Shown here: in pieces, positions 1 to 6,175 of the stretch | Position numbering within the stretch: position 1 is the first letter of the stretch | How the letters are laid out: every line of letters begins with the position of its first letter | Assembly: GCA_024687845.1 (NCBI GenBank) | Contig: JAILEL010000127.1 | Coordinates: 1 to 6,175 of the forward strand | Source: Eubacterium sp. | GTDB lineage: Bacteria; Bacillota_A; Clostridia; Lachnospirales; Lachnospiraceae | Reading direction: 5' to 3' | DNA: 6,175 bases | The notes under the pieces: generated by a model | Database searches by the model: none | What the model was told of the DNA's origin: nothing | Seen by the model: the letters and a program-made list of their open reading frames with translations, nothing else | Made by a program: the position numbers and the translations under genes

Positions 1-12
1 GTACAAAGTAAC

Positions 13-40
13 CTTAAATTGTCATAATTTAGCTTATAAT
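13..40 (+). promoter_or_regulatory. Possible promoter upstream of the histidine kinase
   Basis: A perfect TATAAT lies at 35-40. The best -35 at an acceptable distance is poor: CTTAAA at 13-18 with a 16-nt spacer matches TTGACA at 3 of 6 positions. If used, transcription would start near 47 and leave a leader of about 65 nt before the kinase start. The kinase may instead be read from an upstream gene outside the window, so this is only a candidate. Confidence 0.3.
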
Positions 41-68
41 TCTATGTGGAAATAAGAATGCTTTAAGA

Positions 69-81
69 GTTAACTGTGAAT
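69..81 (+). repeat. Interspersed 13-bp motif, copy 1
   Basis: GTTAACTGTGAAT, 20 nt before the kinase Shine-Dalgarno. It matches the core GTAACTGTGAATA found at 2591-2603 and, with C for T, at 5791 and 5909. It lies in the presumed 5' leader of the kinase gene. Its function is unknown. Confidence 0.5.
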
Positions 82-111
82 TAATGATAATAATCGTAAC
101 AGGAGATTAAC

Positions 112-1365
112 ATGTTCAGAAAAATAAAAATCAAGTTTATAGGTATTTCTGCACTGTCTATGATGATAGTACTTTTTATCGTGCTCGGACTTGTGAACTC
201 AGTAACATATTGGAATACTTTAAAGGATATCTATACTACACTTGACTTTGTTTCTAAACATGAAGATAGTTACGTAAAGGAAGATGAATTTGAGAAGATA
301 AAAGATAAAAGAATAACCTTTGAAACTCAGTTTGAAGCCAGATATATTACCTTCACACTTGGGAATGATGGGACAGTAATAAGTATAAATGATGCTCATA
401 TTGCCTCTATAGGTGATGAAGATATTGAATCATTCTATAAAAAGGTTTTCTCGAATGACAGGGATCACGGAATCTTCTTATTTGATAATTCATACTATGC
501 TTTTAAAAAGAACAGAATAGCTGATGGTAACGAAAAACTAACTGTTATGGATTGTACCAGATATATAAAGTCTTTTAATTTTATAAAAAAGTTCTCCATT
601 TATATAGGCTCACTTAGTATGCTTTTGCTACTATTACTCCTCTCAATCTTTGCAAGAAGAGTAGTGCAGCCTTATATTAAGAATGCAGAGGCTCAGAAGC
701 AGTTTATTACCAATGCAAGCCACGAGCTAAAAACTCCACTTGCTGTCATTTCAGCAAATACTGAAGTTATTGAAATGATGAGCGGTAAAAATGAATGGAC
801 TGAAAGTAATATCAAACAGGTTAAGCGTATGTCAGATCTTATCTCACAGCTTGTTGTTCTTTCAAAGCTTGAAGAGAGAGAGAATATTGTTTTAACTGAT
901 GTAAATATGTCAGAAGTACTTGGAAAGGTAGTTTCAGATTTTGCTACTGTGGCAGAAACTCAGGGCAAACATTTGACAGCTAATATTGAAGAAAATGTAA
1001 TAGTGAAGGCGGATGAAAAAGGCGTACAGGAGCTTGCTAATATTCTTACAGATAATGCAGTAAAATACTGTGACGATAAAGGAACTATAAGCGTTTCTTT
1101 ACGAAAAAAGGGAAAGCAGGCTTGTTTTGTAGTTGCTAATAATTATGAAGATGGTGAAGGGATTGACTATAAGCGCTTCTTTGACAGATTCTACAGAGAA
1201 GATCAATCGCATAGTAATGAGAAGAAAGGCTATGGTATAGGTTTATCCATGGCTGACAGTCTCGTCAGAATGTTTAAAGGTAAGATAAGTGTAACCTACA
1301 AAAAGCCTATGATAAGCTTTACAGTTCTACTGACTGGAGGTTCATCTGAAAAAGATTATAAATAA
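112..1365 (+). CDS. Two-component sensor histidine kinase, HAMP-less
   Basis: A 417-aa membrane sensor kinase that should autophosphorylate on His and pass the phosphate to a response regulator. TM1 is about residues 9-31 and TM2 about 160-181. They flank an extracytoplasmic sensing segment of about 128 residues that I cannot assign to a known domain. The linker from TM2 to the H box is only about 20 residues, too short for a full HAMP domain. The H box NASHELKTPL puts the phosphoacceptor at His204. The N box is around DNAVKY (Asn315), the G1 box is DGEG (347-350), the F box is FFDRFYR (356-362) and the G2 box is GYGIGLS (373-379). All catalytic motifs are present, so it looks active. AGGAG at 101-105, 6 nt before ATG, supports the start. 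No response regulator is in the window; it probably lies upstream, as in most HK/RR pairs. The ligand cannot be read from sequence. Confidence 0.95.
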   Translation: MFRKIKIKFIGISALSMMIVLFIVLGLVNSVTYWNTLKDIYTTLDFVSKHEDSYVKEDEFEKIKDKRITFETQFEARYITFTLGNDGTVISINDAHIASIGDEDIESFYKKVFSNDRDHGIFLFDNSYYAFKKNRIADGNEKLTVMDCTRYIKSFNFIKKFSIYIGSLSMLLLLLLLSIFARRVVQPYIKNAEAQKQFITNASHELKTPLAVISANTEVIEMMSGKNEWTESNIKQVKRMSDLISQLVVLSKLEERENIVLTDVNMSEVLGKVVSDFATVAETQGKHLTANIEENVIVKADEKGVQELANILTDNAVKYCDDKGTISVSLRKKGKQACFVVANNYEDGEGIDYKRFFDRFYREDQSHSNEKKGYGIGLSMADSLVRMFKGKISVTYKKPMISFTVLLTGGSSEKDYK

Positions 1366-1366
1366 C

Positions 1367-1396
1367 TTGAAAAAGACTGGTAAGTTAGGTTATACT
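1367..1396 (+). promoter_or_regulatory. Promoter-like sequence right after the kinase stop
   Basis: TTGAAA (1367-1372, 5/6 to consensus), an 18-nt spacer and TATACT (1391-1396, 5/6). Transcription would begin near 1403 and meet the terminator at 1424-1455, giving a transcript of about 50-60 nt unless it reads through to the AraC-type gene. Such matches also arise by chance in AT-rich DNA. Confidence 0.4.
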
Positions 1397-1423
1397 AATC
1401 TTTGAGTTTTAGCATAAAAGGAT

Positions 1424-1455
1424 AAAAGGACGAATCCTTGCGAATCCGTCCTTTT
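1424..1455 (+). terminator. Intrinsic terminator after the kinase gene
   Basis: A perfect 9-bp stem, AAAAGGACG (1424-1432) with CGTCCTTTT (1447-1455), has a 14-nt loop that carries parts of a CGAATCC direct repeat. The T run belongs to the stem's 3' arm and the A run to the 5' arm, so it could work in both directions. It ends the kinase transcript and any RNA from the promoter-like sequence at 1367. Confidence 0.75.
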
Positions 1456-1487
1456 ACCATTAGTGAAGGTTAAAAGTATTTATATGA

Positions 1488-1512
1488 TTAAAGAAGAATA
1501 AATCTTCTTTAA
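1488..1512. repeat. Perfect 10-bp inverted repeat (AT-rich hairpin)
   Basis: TTAAAGAAGA (1488-1497) and TCTTCTTTAA (1503-1512) are perfectly complementary around the 5-nt loop ATAAA. No T run follows (next bases CAGGGGGC), so it is not a standard terminator. It may be an RNA structure in the leader of the downstream regulator, or an operator. Confidence 0.5.
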
Positions 1513-1530
1513 CAGGGGGCTTATTTATTA

Positions 1531-1547
1531 ACTGATATCAGTATAAT
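1531..1547 (+). promoter_or_regulatory. 12-bp palindrome abutting a TATAAT box
   Basis: ACTGATATCAGT (1531-1542) is a perfect palindrome whose last base is the first T of TATAAT (1542-1547). No good -35 lies 16-18 nt upstream. The arrangement resembles an operator overlapping an activator-dependent promoter, which could serve the AraC-type gene. This is inference from spacing only. Confidence 0.35.
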
Positions 1548-1560
1548 AATTTTCGTAAGA

Positions 1561-1594
1561 TTTTTATACAAGAAAATTGCAATTTGTATCAAAA
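1561..1594. repeat. Nested inverted repeats, possible operator
   Basis: TTTTTATACAA (1561-1571) pairs with TTGTATCAAAA (1584-1594) at 10 of 11 positions. Nested but not concentric is the perfect 12-bp palindrome AAATTGCAATTT (1574-1585). The size fits a dimeric-regulator site or an RNA hairpin. No regulator can be assigned. Confidence 0.4.
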
Positions 1595-1673
1595 TGATGG
1601 TTTAATTTTAAGATTGTAAATAATAGTGAATTTTAGGTATTTGATATGGTACATTGTTACAAAGAATCAGCTC

Positions 1674-1710
1674 TCCGTATTAGTTTATATAGTGTACGGA
1701 TTATCCGGAT
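1674..1710. repeat. Overlapping TCCG/CGGA inverted repeats before the AraC-type gene
   Basis: TCCGTA (1674-1679) pairs with TACGGA (1695-1700). The second arm also belongs to CGGAT-T-ATCCG (1697-1707), which itself overlaps the palindrome ATCCGGAT (1703-1710), followed by TTTTT. The pairings are mutually exclusive, as expected of an attenuator-like leader or of clustered operator half-sites. The block ends 45 nt before the Shine-Dalgarno of the AraC-type gene. Confidence 0.4.
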
Positions 1711-1769
1711 TTTTATAGGTTAATGTGACTTGTATAGGGGATTCACTGGACAGTAGAAGGGGGCAGACT

Positions 1770-2510
1770 ATGTCAGAAATTAAGAGAGAAATAACACAAA
1801 ATATTTTTATGGAAAGAGAAAATGACACAAAACATCCTACATATGAGAACGAGATGTCATTCTATAATCTTATAGCAGAAGGAAAGCTTGAAGAAGTCAG
1901 AAAAGAATGGGAGATATCTCCCAGATCTAATGACGAAATAAGAGGTGTGTTATCTGACAATCCGGCAAGAAATATGATGTATCATTTTATAGCAATGGTG
2001 ACAATAGTTACCAGAGTCTGCATTAGTAACGGAATGCCGCAGGATGTTGCATATAAGATGAGTGATGCTTATATAAGAAAGGCTGACAAAAAGACCAGAA
2101 TCGAAGAACTGCGTCAGGTCGAATGGGAGACAATAGTTGCATATACAGAATTTATGCGTGACAGGACAAAGAGTTCAGCTAAATCAAAACAGATAATTCA
2201 GTGTGTTGATTATATTCATAAAAATATCCATAAGAGTATTACTGTTTCTGAATTGGCAGAAGAAGTTGTTTTGAATGAAACTTATCTGTCAAAGCTCTTT
2301 AAAAAGGAAATGAATTGTACTGTCAGTGAATTTATCAGAAACGAGAAGATAGAAGAAGCCTGCTGGCTGCTCAAATATACCGATAAAACGAGTATAGAGA
2401 TTGCAACAGATCTCTCATTTTCATCACATAGTTATTTTATAAGCGTATTTAAGAAAGTAACCGGTACCACACCAAAAGAATACAGGAATAATAATTTCAG
2501 AAAGATGTAA
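1770..2510 (+). CDS. AraC-family transcriptional regulator
   Basis: A 246-aa DNA-binding regulator. The C-terminal AraC/XylS domain covers about residues 140-240. Its first helix-turn-helix is in ITVSELAEEVVLNETYLSKL (157-176). The second is in SIEIATDLSFSSHSYFISVF (208-227), followed by the typical KKVTGTTPKEYR. The N-terminal 130 residues are helical, with the GKLEEVRKEWE and NPARNMMYHFIA patterns common in clostridial AraC proteins; this is not the sugar-binding cupin of AraC. The effector is unknown. I chose ATG 1770 because AAGGGGG (1757-1763) sits 6 nt upstream. An in-frame GTG at 1725 would add 15 residues (TCIGDSLDSRR...) but would put that Shine-Dalgarno inside the gene. It stands alone between a terminator and a large hairpin, and the palindromes upstream may be its own sites. 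Its targets could be the kinase or the stress genes; the sequence does not say. Confidence 0.93.
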   Translation: MSEIKREITQNIFMERENDTKHPTYENEMSFYNLIAEGKLEEVRKEWEISPRSNDEIRGVLSDNPARNMMYHFIAMVTIVTRVCISNGMPQDVAYKMSDAYIRKADKKTRIEELRQVEWETIVAYTEFMRDRTKSSAKSKQIIQCVDYIHKNIHKSITVSELAEEVVLNETYLSKLFKKEMNCTVSEFIRNEKIEEACWLLKYTDKTSIEIATDLSFSSHSYFISVFKKVTGTTPKEYRNNNFRKM

Positions 2511-2516
2511 AATAAA

Positions 2517-2527
2517 GTTACTATTCA
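2517..2527 (-). repeat. Interspersed motif, inverted copy
   Basis: GTTACTATTCA on the + strand reads TGAATAGTAAC on the - strand, the same unit as in the copies at 5791-5818 and related to GTAACTGTGAATA at 2591. With that copy it brackets the 56-nt hairpin at 2534-2589 in inverted orientation, 7 nt after the AraC-type stop codon. Confidence 0.5.
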
Positions 2528-2533
2528 AGGTTT

Positions 2534-2589
2534 ATGAGATAAGAAACAAAAATGACTGTTTACAGGCACTTTTTGTTTACTTATCTCAT
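2534..2589. terminator. Long near-perfect hairpin, probable bidirectional terminator
   Basis: A 10-bp outer stem, ATGAGATAAG (2534-2543) with CTTATCTCAT (2580-2589), is followed after a one-base bulge (A2579) by 9 bp, AAACAAAAA (2544-2552) with TTTTTGTTT (2570-2578). After a bulged C2569 comes an inner stem, TG-A-CTG (2553-2558) with CAG-G-CA (2563-2568), with one mismatch and a TTTA loop. In all about 24 bp in 56 nt. Read either way, the inner stem is followed by T5GTTT, as in a terminator. The outer stem is longer than termination needs. It closes the AraC-type gene and separates it from the relQ operon. Confidence 0.65.
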
Positions 2590-2590
2590 G

Positions 2591-2603
2591 GTAACTGTGA
2601 ATA
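2591..2603 (+). repeat. Interspersed 13-bp motif, copy 2
   Basis: GTAACTGTGAATA, 2 nt after the hairpin's right arm and 11 nt before the relQ Shine-Dalgarno. No clear -35/-10 pair is visible between 2590 and 2626, so this motif is the most conspicuous sequence in the short relQ leader. Confidence 0.5.
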
Positions 2604-2626
2604 AAAATATGGAATAGGAGTACACC

Positions 2627-3292
2627 ATGGATTATCCGGAAGAATCCAGCCTCCGTAAAGAGGCCGAAGAAGTTGCAAAAAACTTCTCCAGGACCAAAGA
2701 TTTTCTGGACATGATGACACTTTACCGCTGTGCTATCATGGAGATTGAAACAAAACTTAAGGTTCTGAATGAAGAGTTTTCACTTCAATATGACCGTAAT
2801 CCTTTTGAGTCTATAGAATCGAGACTTAAGAGTCCAGCCAGTATTGTAGAAAAGATGATGGCAAAGGGACTTGAGGTAAATGTAGAAAATATTGAAGGTG
2901 AAATATTTGATATAGCAGGAATCAGAGTTGTCTGTTCCTTTAGAGAGGACATTTATCGCCTTGCTGATCTACTTGTTCAGCAGGATGATATTCTTCTGCT
3001 TGCAAGAAAGGACTATATAGAGAATCCTAAGCCTAATGGCTATAGAAGTCTGCATATAATTGTGGATATTCCGATCTTCCTTTCGGAAGGGAAGCGGCAT
3101 ATGAAGGTTGAGGTTCAGTTCAGAACCATTGCAATGGATTTCTGGGCCTCTGTGGATCATAAGCTGAAATATAAGAAAGAAATAAAGCATCCTGAGGAAG
3201 TAGTTGCTCGTCTTAAAAAATGTGCCGACTCACTTGCTGAGATGGATGAAGAAATGGAAGCTATTCGAAGAAATCTGGATCGTGACAGATAG
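2627..3292 (+). CDS. relQ: Small alarmone synthetase, RelQ/YjbM type (GTP pyrophosphokinase)
   Basis: A 221-aa single-domain enzyme that transfers pyrophosphate from ATP to the 3'-OH of GDP or GTP to make (p)ppGpp. It has only the RelA_SpoT synthetase fold; there is no HD hydrolase, TGS or ACT domain, so it cannot degrade the product. Family motifs in order: RLKSPASIVEKM (66-77, nucleotide binding), DIAGIRVVC (95-103), DYIENPKPNGYRSLH (129-143) and VEVQFRT (161-167, catalytic Glu162), then MDFWASVDHKLKYK (170-183). The usual EH of the last motif is DH here. The C-terminal helix ending RRNLDRDR fits RelQ, which in Bacillus and Enterococcus forms tetramers. Length is normal (about 210-220). TAGGAG at 2615-2620, 6 nt before ATG, supports the start. 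It heads a tight run with a NUDIX gene (37-nt gap) and pspA. RelP is the alternative name; length and the MDFWAS context favour RelQ. Confidence 0.93.
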   Translation: MDYPEESSLRKEAEEVAKNFSRTKDFLDMMTLYRCAIMEIETKLKVLNEEFSLQYDRNPFESIESRLKSPASIVEKMMAKGLEVNVENIEGEIFDIAGIRVVCSFREDIYRLADLLVQQDDILLLARKDYIENPKPNGYRSLHIIVDIPIFLSEGKRHMKVEVQFRTIAMDFWASVDHKLKYKKEIKHPEEVVARLKKCADSLAEMDEEMEAIRRNLDRDR

Positions 3293-3329
3293 CGATCCGT
3301 ATTATTTAACATAATAAGGAAGCATATTA

Positions 3330-3896
3330 ATGAAATTTGTTGGAATAGAGAAAAAAGAACAGGGACGATTCATCACCCGATATGATCTTGATTATGAAAC
3401 AGAAGATGGACAGAAGAAAAGATATGAGATAATAAGCCGTAATAGCGATATAAAAACATATGATGAACTACACGGTTCAGAACCTGATGCAGTTGTGCTT
3501 ATTATGACAGATAAGTCAGGAGAGAAGATTCTATTAAACAGAGAATTCAGAATGGCAGCAGGTATGTGGGTTGTGAATTTTCCCGCAGGACTAATTGATC
3601 CGGGGGAAACACCTGAAGAGGCCGCTGCAAGGGAACTTAGAGAAGAGACTGGACTAAAACTCATTTCAATAGACGATATTATTGGTCTTAGTTACAGCGC
3701 TGTAGGCTTTTCAAATGAAATGAATGTTGTTGTAGTAGGAAAATGCGAAGGTGAGATACAAAAAAGTGACTCTTCATTTGAAGAGATAGAAGCTGCGTGG
3801 TATAGTAAAGAGGAGGTTCGTGAACTGCTTAAGACAGAAAGATTTGCGGCTAGAACACAAAGCTTTTGTTATCTGTGGTCAAAAGAAAGGGGTTAA
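3330..3896 (+). CDS. NUDIX hydrolase, ADP-ribose pyrophosphatase-like
   Basis: A 188-aa cytoplasmic hydrolase of nucleoside diphosphates linked to another group. The complete NUDIX box is G87-x5-E93-x7-REL-REET-G-L (87-109), with metal-binding glutamates in the REEL-type core (Glu102, Glu105, Glu106). The [19 protein letters not shown] segment (72-90) and the later GFSNE (126-130) are typical of the ADP-ribose pyrophosphatase (NudF/YqkG) branch, giving AMP and ribose 5-phosphate. The exact substrate is not certain: the family also cleaves sugar nucleotides, and some NUDIX enzymes act on (p)ppGpp. AAGGAAG (3316-3322) lies 7 nt before ATG. The last codons contain the Shine-Dalgarno of pspA, whose start is 2 nt after this stop, so the two are probably translated together. 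Product naming is firm at superfamily level only. Confidence 0.9.
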
Positions 3897-3898
3897 AA

Positions 3899-4570
3899 GT
3901 GGGAATATTAACAAGATTTAAGGATATCATGGCTTCAAATGTTCATGCTCTATTTAATAAAGAAGATAAACACCCTGAGAAGGCTATTGAAAAGTATATG
4001 GCTCAGCTCAGAAGAGATCTCGGTCAGGTGAAGGCGGAAACAGCCGCTCTTGAAACCGAATATAAAAGAGCTGAAAGAGCATATTATGAAAATATGGATG
4101 AGGAAGAGAAGTTTGCCAGATATGCTAATAAGGCAAGAGAAAATGGAAGCTCTTCTGATGCCAGGCTATATGAGAATAAGCTTGAGGCGGCAAGAGCTGA
4201 AGGAGTGAAGCTCAAAGAAAAGTACGAAAGAGCAAAAACAGAAATGGATCAGCTGGCGCTTCTTAATGCCAAGCTTGAGAAGGACGCTGCTACTATCGAG
4301 GGAAAGATGGCAGAGATAAATGAGAAGATTAAAACAGCTGAAGCTCAGAACTCCATGAATAATATAGCAAGCAGAGCAGGCTCCAGAAATACTGAAGAAA
4401 TGTTCTCGAAGATGAATGAGAAGGCTGATTATATTATGGACAGGGCAAATGCCATGGCAGAGCTTGAAAATGTTCAAAGAGATGAGGAACTTAGTGAGCT
4501 TGACAGACTCGCAAGTAAATATGATGCAAATCCAGGAGACGGACTTATTAATATCGATGGTGATGAGTAG
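3899..4570 (+). CDS. pspA: PspA/IM30 (ESCRT-III-like) membrane stress protein
   Basis: A 223-aa peripheral membrane protein that, in the family, assembles into rods or scaffolds on damaged inner membrane and preserves membrane integrity. The N-terminal amphipathic helix MGILTRFKDIMASNVHALF (1-19) is the family signature. It is followed by the HPEKAIEKYMAQLRRDL segment (25-41), then a long coiled-coil hairpin of E/K/A-rich helices (about 42-150) and a short acidic tail (NPGDGLINIDGDE, 211-223). Length matches bacterial PspA (220-230). I chose GTG 3899: AAAGGGG (3886-3892) is 6 nt upstream and translation from it begins exactly with the conserved MGIL. A TTG at 3866 would add 11 unrelated residues and overlap the NUDIX gene. 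It is equivalent to Bacillus YdjF, whose operon also encodes a YdjI SPFH protein, and here the next gene is YdjI-like. No pspF, liaS/liaR or other regulator is adjacent. Confidence 0.95.
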   Translation: MGILTRFKDIMASNVHALFNKEDKHPEKAIEKYMAQLRRDLGQVKAETAALETEYKRAERAYYENMDEEEKFARYANKARENGSSSDARLYENKLEAARAEGVKLKEKYERAKTEMDQLALLNAKLEKDAATIEGKMAEINEKIKTAEAQNSMNNIASRAGSRNTEEMFSKMNEKADYIMDRANAMAELENVQRDEELSELDRLASKYDANPGDGLINIDGDE

Positions 4571-4571
4571 T

Positions 4572-4600
4572 TTGACATAAAATATTAATTAGTATACACT
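4572..4600 (+). promoter_or_regulatory. Possible upstream promoter for the SPFH gene
   Basis: A perfect TTGACA (4572-4577) starts 2 nt after the pspA stop codon. The -10 is less clear: TATACA (4593-4598) at 15 nt or TACACT (4595-4600) at 17 nt. Transcripts would begin inside the inverted repeat at 4596-4615, a common place for a repressor or stress-regulator site. Confidence 0.45.
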
Positions 4601-4615
4601 TGACGTAAGTGTCAA
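4596..4615. promoter_or_regulatory. Inverted repeats between the two SPFH promoters
   Basis: ACACTT-GACGT-AAGTGT (4596-4612) is a perfect 6-bp inverted repeat. Overlapping it, TTGAC-GTAAGT-GTCAA (4600-4615) is a second perfect 5-bp repeat. It covers the start region of the upstream promoter and the -35 of the downstream one, so a bound protein could control both. It could also act as a short RNA hairpin. No regulator can be named. Confidence 0.4.
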
Positions 4616-4628
4616 AAGACAAAATAAT
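4600..4628 (+). promoter_or_regulatory. Probable promoter of the SPFH gene
   Basis: TTGACG (4600-4605, 5/6), a 17-nt spacer and AATAAT (4623-4628, 5/6). Transcription would begin near 4635, leaving a leader of under 20 nt with the Shine-Dalgarno GGAGG at 4641-4645. It would let the SPFH gene be expressed apart from relQ-NUDIX-pspA. No terminator separates pspA from this gene, so read-through is also possible. Confidence 0.55.
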
Positions 4629-4651
4629 AACATTATTTTTGGAGGTAAAGT

Positions 4652-5794
4652 ATGGGTATTATAGGTAATCAGTTAGCAAATGTAGTTGAGTGGGAAGAGT
4701 TTGATGAGAATATGATCTTCTGGAAGTGGACCAATAGAGAAATCAAGAAAGGTTCACGCCTTATTATCAGACCTGGTCAGGATGCTATTTTTATGTATCA
4801 GGGAAAGGTTGAAGGTGTATTCACAGATGAAGGAGACTATGATATTGAATCAAAGATTATTCCATTTTTGTCAACACTTATGGGATTCAAGTTTGGATTC
4901 AATTCTGGACTTAGAGCAGAGGTTCTGTTCGTAAATACAAAGGAATTCACTATTAAATGGGGAACAAAGGCTCCTATAATGCTTCAGGCTCAGGGACTTC
5001 CAGGTGGTATGCCAGTTAGAGCAAATGGTACTGCCAATATTCAGGTTAAAGATTATATGACTCTTATAGATAAGGTTGCTGGTGTTAAGCAGTCTTATGT
5101 AGTTGATGATGTTAAGCTTCGTATTACTACTGTTCTTGATCAGCTTCTAATGAAGTGGATATCAAAAGAAGGTAAGGATATGTTCAACCTTCAGGCAAGC
5201 GCTTTTGATATTTCAAAGGGTATTCAGGAAGATCTGGATATGGAGCTCAGTAAGATAGGTATTTCTGTAACTGGCTTCAGCATCAACAACTTCAATTATC
5301 CGGAAGAGATTCAGAAGGCTATCAACAAGAATGCTGCACAGGCAATGGTTGGTGATGTTGGAAAATATACACAGCTTTCTATGGTTGATGCGATGGCTGA
5401 TGGAAAACTCAGCGGTGGCAATTCAACTATGGGTAATATGGCCGAGATGATGATGGGCGCACAGATGGCAGGTCAGATGATGGGCAACATGGGCATGGGA
5501 ATGGGCCAGCCAATGGGCGGATATCCACAGCAGGGATATGGTCAGCCAATGGGTGGATACCCACAGCAGGGATATGGTCAGCCAATGGGCGGATATCCAC
5601 AGCAGGGATACGGCCAGCCAATGGGTGGATATCCACAGCAGGGATATCAGCAGGCACCACAGGGTGGATACCAGCAGGCTCAGGGACAGCCAGCACAGGG
5701 GGCACCTGCAGAAGCTCCTAAGTTTTGTCCAGAGTGTGGAACACAGACAGGTGGCGCAAAGTTCTGTCCAAATTGCGGAACTAAGCTTGCATAA
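4652..5794 (+). CDS. YdjI-like SPFH protein with GYPQQGY repeats and zinc ribbon
   Basis: A 380-aa protein. Residues 1-240 form an SPFH (band 7/virion-core-like) domain of the YdjI type: [16 protein letters not shown] near the start, then [37 protein letters not shown] and a helix ending with [15 protein letters not shown]. There is no signal peptide or membrane helix, so it is cytoplasmic or membrane-peripheral. Residues 260-284 are Met/Gly-rich. Residues 285-332 are four identical [12 protein letters not shown] units, followed by a Q/G/A-rich linker. The tail is a zinc ribbon, CPEC (359-362) and CPNC (372-375). GGAGG (4641-4645) lies 6 nt before ATG. In Bacillus, YdjI works with PspA (YdjF) and two membrane proteins, YdjG and YdjH; here it follows pspA directly and no such partners are present. 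The likely role is recruiting or organising PspA at membranes, by family inference. The repeat tail is unusually regular. Confidence 0.92.
5504..5647 (+). repeat. Four tandem 36-bp repeats inside the SPFH gene
   Basis: Four uninterrupted copies at 5504-5539, 5540-5575, 5576-5611 and 5612-5647. Each encodes [12 protein letters not shown]. They differ only at third positions of four codons (GGC/GGT, GGC/GGT, TAT/TAC, TAT/TAC), so the peptide is unchanged in every copy. Tandem repeats this similar can change copy number by slippage. There are no spacers, so this is not a CRISPR array. Confidence 0.95.
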
Positions 5795-5818
5795 CCGTGA
5801 ATAGTAATGAATAGTTAC
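5791..5818 (+). repeat. Interspersed motif, tandem copy over the SPFH stop codon
   Basis: ATAACCGTGAATAGTAA runs into a second unit, TGAATAGTTAC. The stop codon TAA (5792-5794) is formed by the first bases of the motif. It belongs to the same family as the copies at 69, 2517 (inverted), 2591 and 5909. Confidence 0.55.
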
Positions 5819-5825
5819 ATTTGAA

Positions 5826-5840
5826 CATAAATTATTTATG
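5826..5840. repeat. 15-nt AT-rich palindrome
   Basis: CATAAAT-T-ATTTATG is a perfect 7-bp inverted repeat with a one-base centre, between the SPFH gene and its terminator. It is too AT-rich to form a strong RNA stem. It could be a protein site or chance. Confidence 0.3.
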
Positions 5841-5870
5841 ATAAATCTATCTGAATAACTTTATATGAAG

Positions 5871-5906
5871 GCACTCCCTTGTTTAAAATATGAGGGAGTG
5901 CTTTTT
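5871..5906 (+). terminator. Rho-independent terminator of the SPFH transcript
   Basis: GCACTCCCT (5871-5879) pairs perfectly with AGGGAGTGC (5893-5901) around a 13-nt AT-rich loop, followed by TTTTT (5902-5906). It is the strongest terminator in the window. It ends the relQ-NUDIX-pspA-SPFH block and insulates the heat-shock promoter of clpB. Confidence 0.9.
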
Positions 5907-5908
5907 GA

Positions 5909-5942
5909 GTTAACCGTGAATAGTTACAATCTGAATAGTAGC
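5909..5942 (+). repeat. Interspersed motif, copy upstream of the clpB promoter
   Basis: GTTAACCGTGAATAGTTAC (5909-5927) followed by a half copy, CTGAATAGTAGC (5931-5942). It starts 2 nt after the terminator T run and ends 16 nt before the clpB -35 box. The clpB promoter spacer contains GTAACTG (5967-5973), possibly a decayed further copy. Confidence 0.55.
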
Positions 5943-5958
5943 ATCTCATAAAAAGTGA

Positions 5959-5987
5959 TTGACAGGGTAACTGCATAGTGGTATAAC
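5959..5987 (+). promoter_or_regulatory. Sigma-A promoter of clpB
   Basis: TTGACA (5959-5964, 6/6), a 17-nt spacer and TATAAC (5982-5987, 5/6). Transcription should begin near 5994, about 9 nt before the CIRCE operator, the usual layout of HrcA-repressed genes. Confidence 0.88.
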
Positions 5988-6002
5988 ATCATTAAGAAAA
6001 GA

Positions 6003-6029
6003 TTAGCACTCACCAAGTGAGAGTGCTAA
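6003..6029. promoter_or_regulatory. CIRCE operator (HrcA binding site)
   Basis: TTAGCACTC (6003-6011), nine bases, then GAGTGCTAA (6021-6029): an exact match to the CIRCE consensus TTAGCACTC-N9-GAGTGCTAA. HrcA binds it at normal temperature and releases it when unfolded protein occupies GroEL. It also lies in the 5' leader, so it can fold as an RNA hairpin ahead of the Shine-Dalgarno. Confidence 0.98.
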
Positions 6030-6052
6030 CAAGAAGGAAAGGAGTTGAGTGT

Positions 6053-6175
6053 ATGAATGCTGATAAATTAACAAGAAAATCTCTTGAGGCTGTTGAAGGC
6101 TGTCAGAGAATATGTATGGAATATAATAACCAGGAAGTTGTGTCAGAGCATCTGCTCTATAGCCTGCTTACTCTT
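6053..6175 (+). CDS. clpB: ATP-dependent chaperone ClpB, N-terminal fragment (runs off the window)
   Basis: Only the first 41 codons are present: MNADKLTRKSLEAVEGCQ followed by RICMEYNNQEVVSEHLL and YSLLTL. This matches the start of the ClpB Clp-N repeat (family pattern MNxxKxTxKSxEAL...A...A...NQEx...HLLxALL). ClpB is a hexameric AAA+ disaggregase that works with DnaK. AAAGGAG (6038-6044) lies 8 nt before ATG. The CIRCE element and heat-shock context support ClpB. ClpC is the closest alternative, but it usually begins with a different MFxRFTExA pattern and is under CtsR. The AAA modules lie beyond the window. Confidence 0.9.
   Translation, partial: MNADKLTRKSLEAVEGCQRICMEYNNQEVVSEHLLYSLLTL

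Follow-up and report, generated by a model that had tools for sequence, protein, structure and literature searches.

The gene row and its upstream region

The DNA stretch analysed within this work (the window) comprises 6,175 nucleotides (nt) of the Eubacterium sp. contig JAILEL010000127.1 (GCA_024687845.1; positions 1-6,175, forward strand) and carries a row of genes for a predicted alarmone synthetase, followed by those for a NUDIX hydrolase, for PspA and for an SPFH protein, preceded by a gene for an AraC-type regulator and by a conserved, putative RNA element. All genes of the window, from a histidine kinase gene at its beginning through a ClpB-like gene at its end, are encoded on the + strand. 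The gene for the RelP/SasA-like small alarmone synthetase (relP, 2627..3292; RelA_SpoT, Pfam 1.5e-33, G-loop NPKPNGY) is followed by that for a NUDIX hydrolase resembling ADP-ribose pyrophosphatases (3330..3896; NUDIX, Pfam 1.1e-21, Nudix box intact), by pspA (3899..4570; PspA_IM30, Pfam 2e-13), whose start was assigned to the GTG at 3899, and by the gene for a YdjI-like SPFH protein (4652..5794; Band_7_1, Pfam 1.8e-46), which possesses Gly/Gln/Pro-rich repeats and a C-terminal zinc ribbon. The order and the spacing of 37 nt (relP-NUDIX) and 2 nt (NUDIX-pspA) given in a preliminary description of this DNA were found to be exact, with the SPFH gene following after 81 nt. The conserved unit reaches upstream of relP, whereby it includes araC (1770-2510; C-terminal helix-turn-helix, all-helical N-terminal half) and the RNA element (1423-1520). 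The latter is the best conserved element of the locus and lies outside the section 2627..5794 to which the preliminary description was confined.

Conservation of the gene order

All comparisons rest on relatives, which are mostly metagenome-assembled with contigs that are often cut. In a RelP-anchored survey of species-level genomes the best 80 of 360 loci were considered (L001-L080; genomes are given as G numbers), of which L001-L036 each have at least one neighbour in common with the window, while L037-L080 hold the synthetase alone, except for a 25% kinase match in L059. The order relP-NUDIX-pspA-(ydjG-ydjH)-SPFH was identified in 19 of these 36 loci (L001-L014, L017, L019, L022, L024 and L035), counting L008, whose contig ends before the SPFH gene. 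Across the 19 loci RelP identity amounts to 73-91%, and PspA identity across the relatives drops to 31%, hence the order has outlived much sequence change. The gene order, recurring in 19 other species-level genomes, thus exceeds chance and is not the property of one strain, which had been named as the outcome that would refute the preliminary description. Across the relatives the gaps are mostly short or overlapping; a 221-nt relP-NUDIX gap was found in L022 and an open reading frame (ORF) of 171 amino acids between relP and the NUDIX gene in L035, whereas in L011, L014 and L024 the distance between these two genes is unreliable due to ORF-start artefacts. The araC-relP gap is shorter in the relatives listed than in the window, with the exception of L007, where the araC reading frame is broken (L007:5337-5968, split over two frames by a frameshift or an assembly error). 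A description of this gene row was not found in the open-access literature searched by text; of two phage-shock surveys, PMC11237479 contains neither 'nudix' nor 'alarmone' in its main text and PMC9239133 does not contain 'ppGpp' in its own.

The predicted RNA element upstream of araC

The element (~98 nt, 1423..1520, + strand) is composed of a hairpin P1 (1423-1432 with 1447-1456), a nearly invariant linker UUAGUGAAGGUUAAAAGUAUUUAUAUG, a hairpin P2 (1488-1497 with 1503-1512) and a tail CAGGGGGC. Alignment of the DNA before araC revealed this block to be better conserved than the proteins encoded downstream, and its 34-nt core was found to be identical in 17 of 162 loci besides the window. Covariation was assessed with an alignment (A5) of 24 distinct sequences, i.e., 480 cells over 20 pairs, as compared to 500 shuffles; left out were L126 (longer P1), L028 and L031 (P2 not recognisable) and the near-copies L004, L005, L015, L027 and L030. 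Within A5, 96.5% of the cells are paired (37-58% in slid controls), seven of the 20 pairs are altered on both sides (3.5 in shuffles, with 1/500 reaching seven), the number of cells altered on both sides is 28 (6.7 in shuffles, 0/500) and the covariation score is 0.179 (0.054 in shuffles, 0/500). Six of the seven varying pairs lie in P1. When copies were folded alone, six of eight yielded z < -2.2, the others being L008 (-2.08) and L165 (-1.62). No Rfam family matched the element at gathering score, the best sub-threshold match being L20_leader on the opposite strand (24.6 bits, cut-off 58.7), and a search for literature on the element returned nothing relevant. Considering its conservation, which exceeds that of the proteins downstream, and the lack of an Rfam match, it could represent a regulatory RNA that is new.

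Among the 36 genomes of L001-L036, 30 carry the element. Of the remaining six, five have no araC at the locus, and L035, the sixth, has its araC at the very end of the contig. Using stricter filters, by which weak matches are lost, it was identified in 54 of 61 genomes of the genus, in 4 of 397 family-drawn genomes (two of them, G082 and G141, outside the genus) and, in an order-level draw, solely in the genome that served as its centre (1 of 392). Nearly all genomes hold one clear copy, which adjoins araC wherever this gene is in view, and araC is the first gene 3' of the element in all 31 sources read as well as in all of 22 further loci. Just upstream of the element the window holds a promoter-like sequence, TTGAAA-18-TATACT (1367..1396, + strand); in 13 of 30 element copies the best promoter-like site scores at least 9, with the -10 box starting 19-26 nt before the hairpin. 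The + strand of the window shows no terminator-like site in the stretch that separates the element from araC.

Two alternatives to a leader of araC have to be considered at this point, both of them unlikely. Firstly, the element might be a separate, trans-acting small RNA that resides beside araC for other reasons; its long, unpaired and nearly invariant linker would suit such a function, as would a promoter-like site of its own in the 13 copies just mentioned, but the missing terminator-like site towards araC in the window and the one clear copy in nearly all genomes, placed next to araC wherever this gene is in view, argue against it. Secondly, the conserved block might act as DNA, i.e., as an operator or a compound promoter. 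Tandem core copies, spaced 23-25 nt as in operator arrays, do precede a glycoside hydrolase-like gene in G262, and related sites occur in the genomes of L003, L005 and L015; a DNA site is, however, difficult to reconcile with compensatory change at six P1 pairs and with a linker that varies in length by as much as 5 nt between constant flanks. The reading preferred here is a leader RNA that would be transcribed together with araC.

Beyond this, the sequences following GAAGG were inspected in 53 copies, and in all of them an AUG (50) or UUG (3) was found 9-14 nt downstream. The reading frame starting there spans 2-10 codons in 42 of the 53, yet across copies its length varies between 2 codons and at least 40, the length at which translation was cut, so that no peptide is kept and the idea of a conserved leader peptide was rejected. 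Likewise P1 was rejected as terminator of the kinase gene, as in L021 and other relatives the stem is retained but lacks a T-run. Weak extra matches to the element were observed upstream of a glycoside hydrolase-like gene in the genomes of L004, L005 and L015, with the core copies in tandem (23-25 nt apart) in the genome of L004, which is G262. Within one branch only, L196 (5930-6075, five core copies, 23-25 nt apart) and L198 carry such copies directly before a glycoside-hydrolase-like gene.

RelP as an optional member of the row

As the RelP-anchored survey is blind to loci without RelP, a second survey was anchored on the RNA element and covered the 61 genomes available for the genus of G001, a genus of gut Lachnospiraceae, with the regions of 23 members being read in addition to those from the first survey. 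Sorting of the gene content by hand revealed RelP together with the phage-shock protein (PSP) module, i.e., pspA and the SPFH gene, in 19 genomes, the PSP module only in 10, RelP only in 19 and neither in 6, whereas 7 genomes were unresolved or cut (G420, G762, G766, G432, G773, G759 and G774) and were left out of the Fisher test. Within the 54 resolved genomes loci with both RelP and PSP were observed 19 times (20.4 expected), giving p = 0.55 in Fisher's exact test and an odds ratio of 0.6, values that are uncorrected for relatedness. The PSP-without-RelP state requires at least three changes on the supported branches alone of the single-gene NUDIX tree. RelP is missing from 10 of the 29 PSP loci, while the NUDIX gene directly precedes pspA in all 29, including the 10 without relP. 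Since this adjacency is invariant and RelP and PSP are independent, NUDIX, PspA and SPFH form the tight part of the row, which RelP joins without statistical preference as an optional member. A fixed four-gene system was thus rejected, given that the element-anchored survey revealed both PSP loci without RelP and RelP loci without PSP. For the single stress unit proposed previously this means that the order in 19 genomes and the mostly short gaps speak in its favour, but that the fixed link between alarmone and PSP, which was part of the proposal, is not supported.

In the genus a NUDIX orthologue of at least 65% identity was identified in 57 of 61 genomes, being absent from G759, G766, G773 and G774. 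Among the 19 RelP-only genomes, six possess a close SPFH gene elsewhere, each adjoining a pspA-like gene, and two of these six carry ydjG-ydjH; no close SPFH match was found in the other 13, nor in the six genomes with neither RelP nor PSP. Many loci without the PSP module (L018, L020, L025, L026, L256, L263 and others) hold a DUF218 gene between relP (or araC) and the NUDIX gene.

The presence or absence of RelP, DUF218 and PSP independently of one another would also be expected if unrelated genes were kept in a row by descent within one genus, without forming a functional unit. We consider this doubtful, as the NUDIX-PspA order is retained despite the low PspA identity noted above, and the element and araC occur together wherever both are visible. 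A functional unit with a tight and an optional part is the reading followed below.

Properties of the encoded proteins

The preliminary description had labelled the synthetase as RelQ. Comparison with solved structures yielded 186 bits for a RelP-like entry, 179 bits for YwaC and 135 bits for YjbM/RelQ, and the protein scored below the NCBIfam YjbM equivalog cut-off (184 vs 320 bits). According to the excerpted text of PMC5794853, Pro146 of SaRelP, located five residues before the guanosine-binding Tyr151, keeps the G-loop rigid and is a mark of RelP; the window synthetase has a proline at this position (NPKPNGYRS). Of the ten nucleotide-contact residues named in the same excerpt, nine have equivalents in the window protein as assigned by alignment spacing (Arg78, Lys80, Ser84, Lys88, Asp107, Arg112, Tyr151, Glu174 and His190), while Arg91 is replaced by Ala. 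Bit scores, the missed YjbM cut-off and the G-loop proline together rule out the relQ label, and on its sequence the enzyme is RelP/SasA-like, an assignment that rests on pairwise scores and residues rather than on a tree with named references.

Many relatives encode a second, more distant small alarmone synthetase ahead of the two-component system (among them L013:2185-2793 and L012:1900-2517), where it precedes a response regulator and the kinase and has fabF, fabZ and a MarR gene as neighbours. The response regulator precedes the histidine kinase in many relatives, often with the second synthetase before it. This synthetase was found in 15 of 18 genomes searched, besides the long Rel and RelP, and about half of the copies lie near the locus. 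In L012 and L013 it carries an alanine at the G-loop proline position, and in a tree it is represented by 17 rows that group on a single branch, separate from RelP. Of the ten genomes with PSP but without RelP, nine still match it at 37-42%.

The NUDIX protein matches the Nudix box pattern GX5EX7REUXEEXGU. Its predicted fold (mean predicted local distance difference test score 90.9) yielded NUDT5 as top Foldseek matches (query template modelling (TM) score 0.76-0.81), and both by sequence and by fold its nearest solved relatives are ADP-ribose pyrophosphatases. Classical ADP-ribose enzymes possess a proline in an S-P-G loop after the Nudix box; this proline was not found in the NUDIX proteins aligned, 20 of 21 of which read SAVGFSNE and one (L011) SAVGFANE, ADP-ribose thus being no more than a candidate substrate of the enzyme. 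In a scan of 250 family genomes an orthologue of at least 51% identity was identified in 36, one of which has an in-frame stop, and all 36 regions were read. In only three of them (G005, which is L022, G052 and G082) is the NUDIX gene a direct neighbour of relP or at most two genes away from it; in G172 it lies behind araC with no relP at the locus, in G041 a 48% RelP-like gene lies 5.5 kb downstream, and no RelP-like gene was found in the stretch fetched around the remaining orthologues. This location mostly away from relP argues for a predicted role in general nucleotide clearing. The preliminary description had also considered clearance of the alarmone, but an enzyme dedicated to it was rejected, given the nearest solved relatives, the three of 36 family orthologues near relP and the ten relP-less loci in which the NUDIX gene stays with pspA. 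A hard-wired circuit of alarmone synthesis and membrane protection, in which the NUDIX enzyme would turn over the alarmone as does NahA of B. subtilis (a NuDiX enzyme that turns SasA-made ppGpp into pGpp according to the excerpted text of PMC7492591), is in consequence quite improbable, since small or overlapping relP-NUDIX gaps in many loci and a second synthetase in nine of ten relP-less PSP genomes are outweighed by these same observations and by the independence of RelP and PSP.

The PspA-SPFH half of the row is, judged by sequence, a module of the B. subtilis pspA-ydjGHI type that appears trimmed in the window, in line with the partnership of PspA and a YdjI-type SPFH protein assumed at the outset. 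Between pspA and the SPFH gene, ydjG-ydjH is present in six of the 19 relP-bearing relatives (L013, L017, L019, L022, L024 and L035). Domains of the extra genes were scanned in L013 only and revealed a zinc-ribbon protein, with one ribbon above and a second below the cut-off, and a TPM-domain protein, thereby fitting YdjG and YdjH as described in the excerpt of PMC11237479. The pair is absent from the window and from 13 of the 19 relatives, in 12 of which the pspA-SPFH junction is in view, with one being cut earlier. L014 is devoid of ydjG-ydjH although all other members of the supported five-row clade to which it belongs carry both; therefore the pair would have been lost at least twice, if ancestral. 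No ydjG match above 37% was found elsewhere in 11 of 11 searched relatives without ydjG at the locus, metagenome-assembled genomes being possibly incomplete, whereas five of five searched relatives with ydjG, one of them the query itself, show a match of at least 57% there. The locus PspA is a divergent paralogue. Better-scoring PspA proteins are encoded elsewhere in the genomes of L084, L081, L085 and L087; in three of these four genomes the gene is flanked by pyrimidine phosphorylase-like and pcrA-like helicase genes (names by sight).

For AraC, the fold search gave good matches for the DNA-binding half only; full-length matches were weak (AraC proteins such as Rns and ToxT, TM near 0.4), and its helical N-terminal half returned no good structural match.

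Proposed function of the row

Considering the above, the row probably constitutes a single envelope-stress operon, with a predicted folded-RNA element and AraC upstream and the predicted alarmone synthetase as an optional output, to which we assign a probability of about 0.5. This proposal builds on what was observed: a conserved gene order, hairpins that covary, an element placed immediately before araC, and the independent presence of relP and PSP. Transcription would start just before the element, at the promoter-like sequence 1367-1396, and run into araC, the element thereby being the 5' leader of the araC mRNA. Leader and AraC, perhaps with the neighbouring two-component system, would set expression of the genes downstream. 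In analogy to B. subtilis, PspA and the SPFH protein would attach to membrane under stress and shield it. Growth would be slowed by RelP, in those loci that possess it, through an increase in (p)ppGpp or pGpp, while the NUDIX enzyme would remove a nucleotide resembling ADP-ribose, not the alarmone. Published wiring fits this setting: SasA/RelP is under sigma-M and sigma-W in B. subtilis (PMC7492591), and relP/relQ is placed under VraRS or WalKR, the VraRS case being that of S. aureus (PMC10117726).

Several observations weigh against an envelope-stress operon of this kind. RelP and PSP are unassociated (p = 0.55), so joint action of the two is not implied by selection. A weak terminator-like stem (3276-3299) overlaps the relP end, with five terminator-like sites in the scan as compared to 1.8 in shuffles, hence a single transcript across relP-NUDIX is not assured. 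The pspA-SPFH gap holds two promoter-like sites (4572..4628, + strand, score 10 of 12) upstream of the SPFH gene, such sites showing no excess over chance in the scanned region (15 vs 15.2 in shuffles), and in the window araC and relP are separated by 116 nt bearing an inverted repeat (2534..2589, + strand, 19-nt arms, 18-nt spacer). As to the leader, the promoter signal over all 30 copies is weak (mean 8.07 vs 7.56 in shuffles), one of five pair measures, the number of further pair types, does not exceed that in shuffles (9 vs 7.7, reached in 100/500), and the longer stretch 1400-1530 of the window folds at a z of only -1.70. P2, which could not be recognised in L028 or L031, hardly varies elsewhere, and its support is accordingly weaker than that of P1.

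A more far-reaching version of the proposal is speculative and rather unlikely to hold in full. Here the element would represent a new class of sensory leader RNA for envelope or nucleotide stress that, together with AraC, gates an operon coupling the synthesis of alarmone and the clearing of nucleotides to an ESCRT-III-like repair of the membrane that dispenses with the usual YdjG/YdjH membrane receptor. Sensing is suggested because the two hairpins flank a possible ribosome-entry site, followed in 42 of 53 copies by the frame of 2-10 codons.

The significance of the row lies in its combination of parts. In B. subtilis SasA and pspA-ydjGHI answer to overlapping envelope-stress sigma factors, whereas here the same kinds of genes can share one row and one regulator, which makes a link between alarmone and membrane testable in one place. 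The survey moreover separates the kept from the optional parts of the row, and the absence of ydjGH in two branches provides a natural test of PspA/YdjI membrane targeting without the known receptor.

Further features of the window

The sensor histidine kinase gene (112..1365, + strand; HisKA, HATPase_c, Pfam) opens the window, and the 5' part of the ClpB-like gene (6053..6175, + strand, identified by tblastn) closes it; the window end cuts this gene, which is full-length in L012. Upstream of it lies TTAGCACTC-N9-GAGTGCTAA (6003..6029, + strand), an operator resembling CIRCE (controlling inverted repeat of chaperone expression). The exact pattern occurs in 24 of 226 fetched loci, most of which belong to the locus described here. 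Within the SPFH gene, 36-nt tandem repeats (5497-5676) encode Gly/Gln/Pro/Met-rich repeats ahead of the zinc ribbon. A short, partly palindromic element around TAAC(C/T)GTGAATAGTTAC recurs in intergenic DNA (71-90, 2516-2605, 5792-5815 and 5909-5935) and looks like an interspersed repeat. A shared operator before the SPFH gene was rejected, as the palindrome-like stretch at ~4600-4615 is without counterpart in the relatives aligned.

Comparison with known systems

As compared to the Rfam families, the element has nothing in common with any of them at gathering score. With NahA (YvcI) of B. subtilis, the hydrolase converting ppGpp to pGpp, the window row shares a NUDIX enzyme that adjoins or acts with a SasA-type synthetase; it differs in that its enzyme is like ADP-ribose pyrophosphatases of the NUDT5 type, whereby NahA enters this comparison by description and not by sequence. 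The RelP/SasA (YwaC) synthetases and the window enzyme have in common the single synthetase domain, the G-loop proline and, as far as spacing on the alignment allows them to be placed, nine of the ten contact residues looked for, whereas the location of the gene in an araC-NUDIX-pspA row and the alanine in place of Arg91 set the latter apart. The closest counterpart of the other half is pspA-ydjGHI of B. subtilis, which is under sigma-W and where recruitment of PspA needs YdjI, YdjG and YdjH according to the excerpted text of PMC8581546. As in that operon (PMC8581546, PMC11237479), PspA and an SPFH/Band-7 protein with a C-terminal zinc ribbon are encoded side by side, and six relatives carry the zinc-ribbon YdjG-like and TPM-domain YdjH-like genes in equal order. 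In contrast, ydjG and ydjH, which in B. subtilis bring PspA and YdjI to the membrane, are absent from the window, and its module is joined to araC, relP and the NUDIX gene, with AraC and the RNA element residing upstream.

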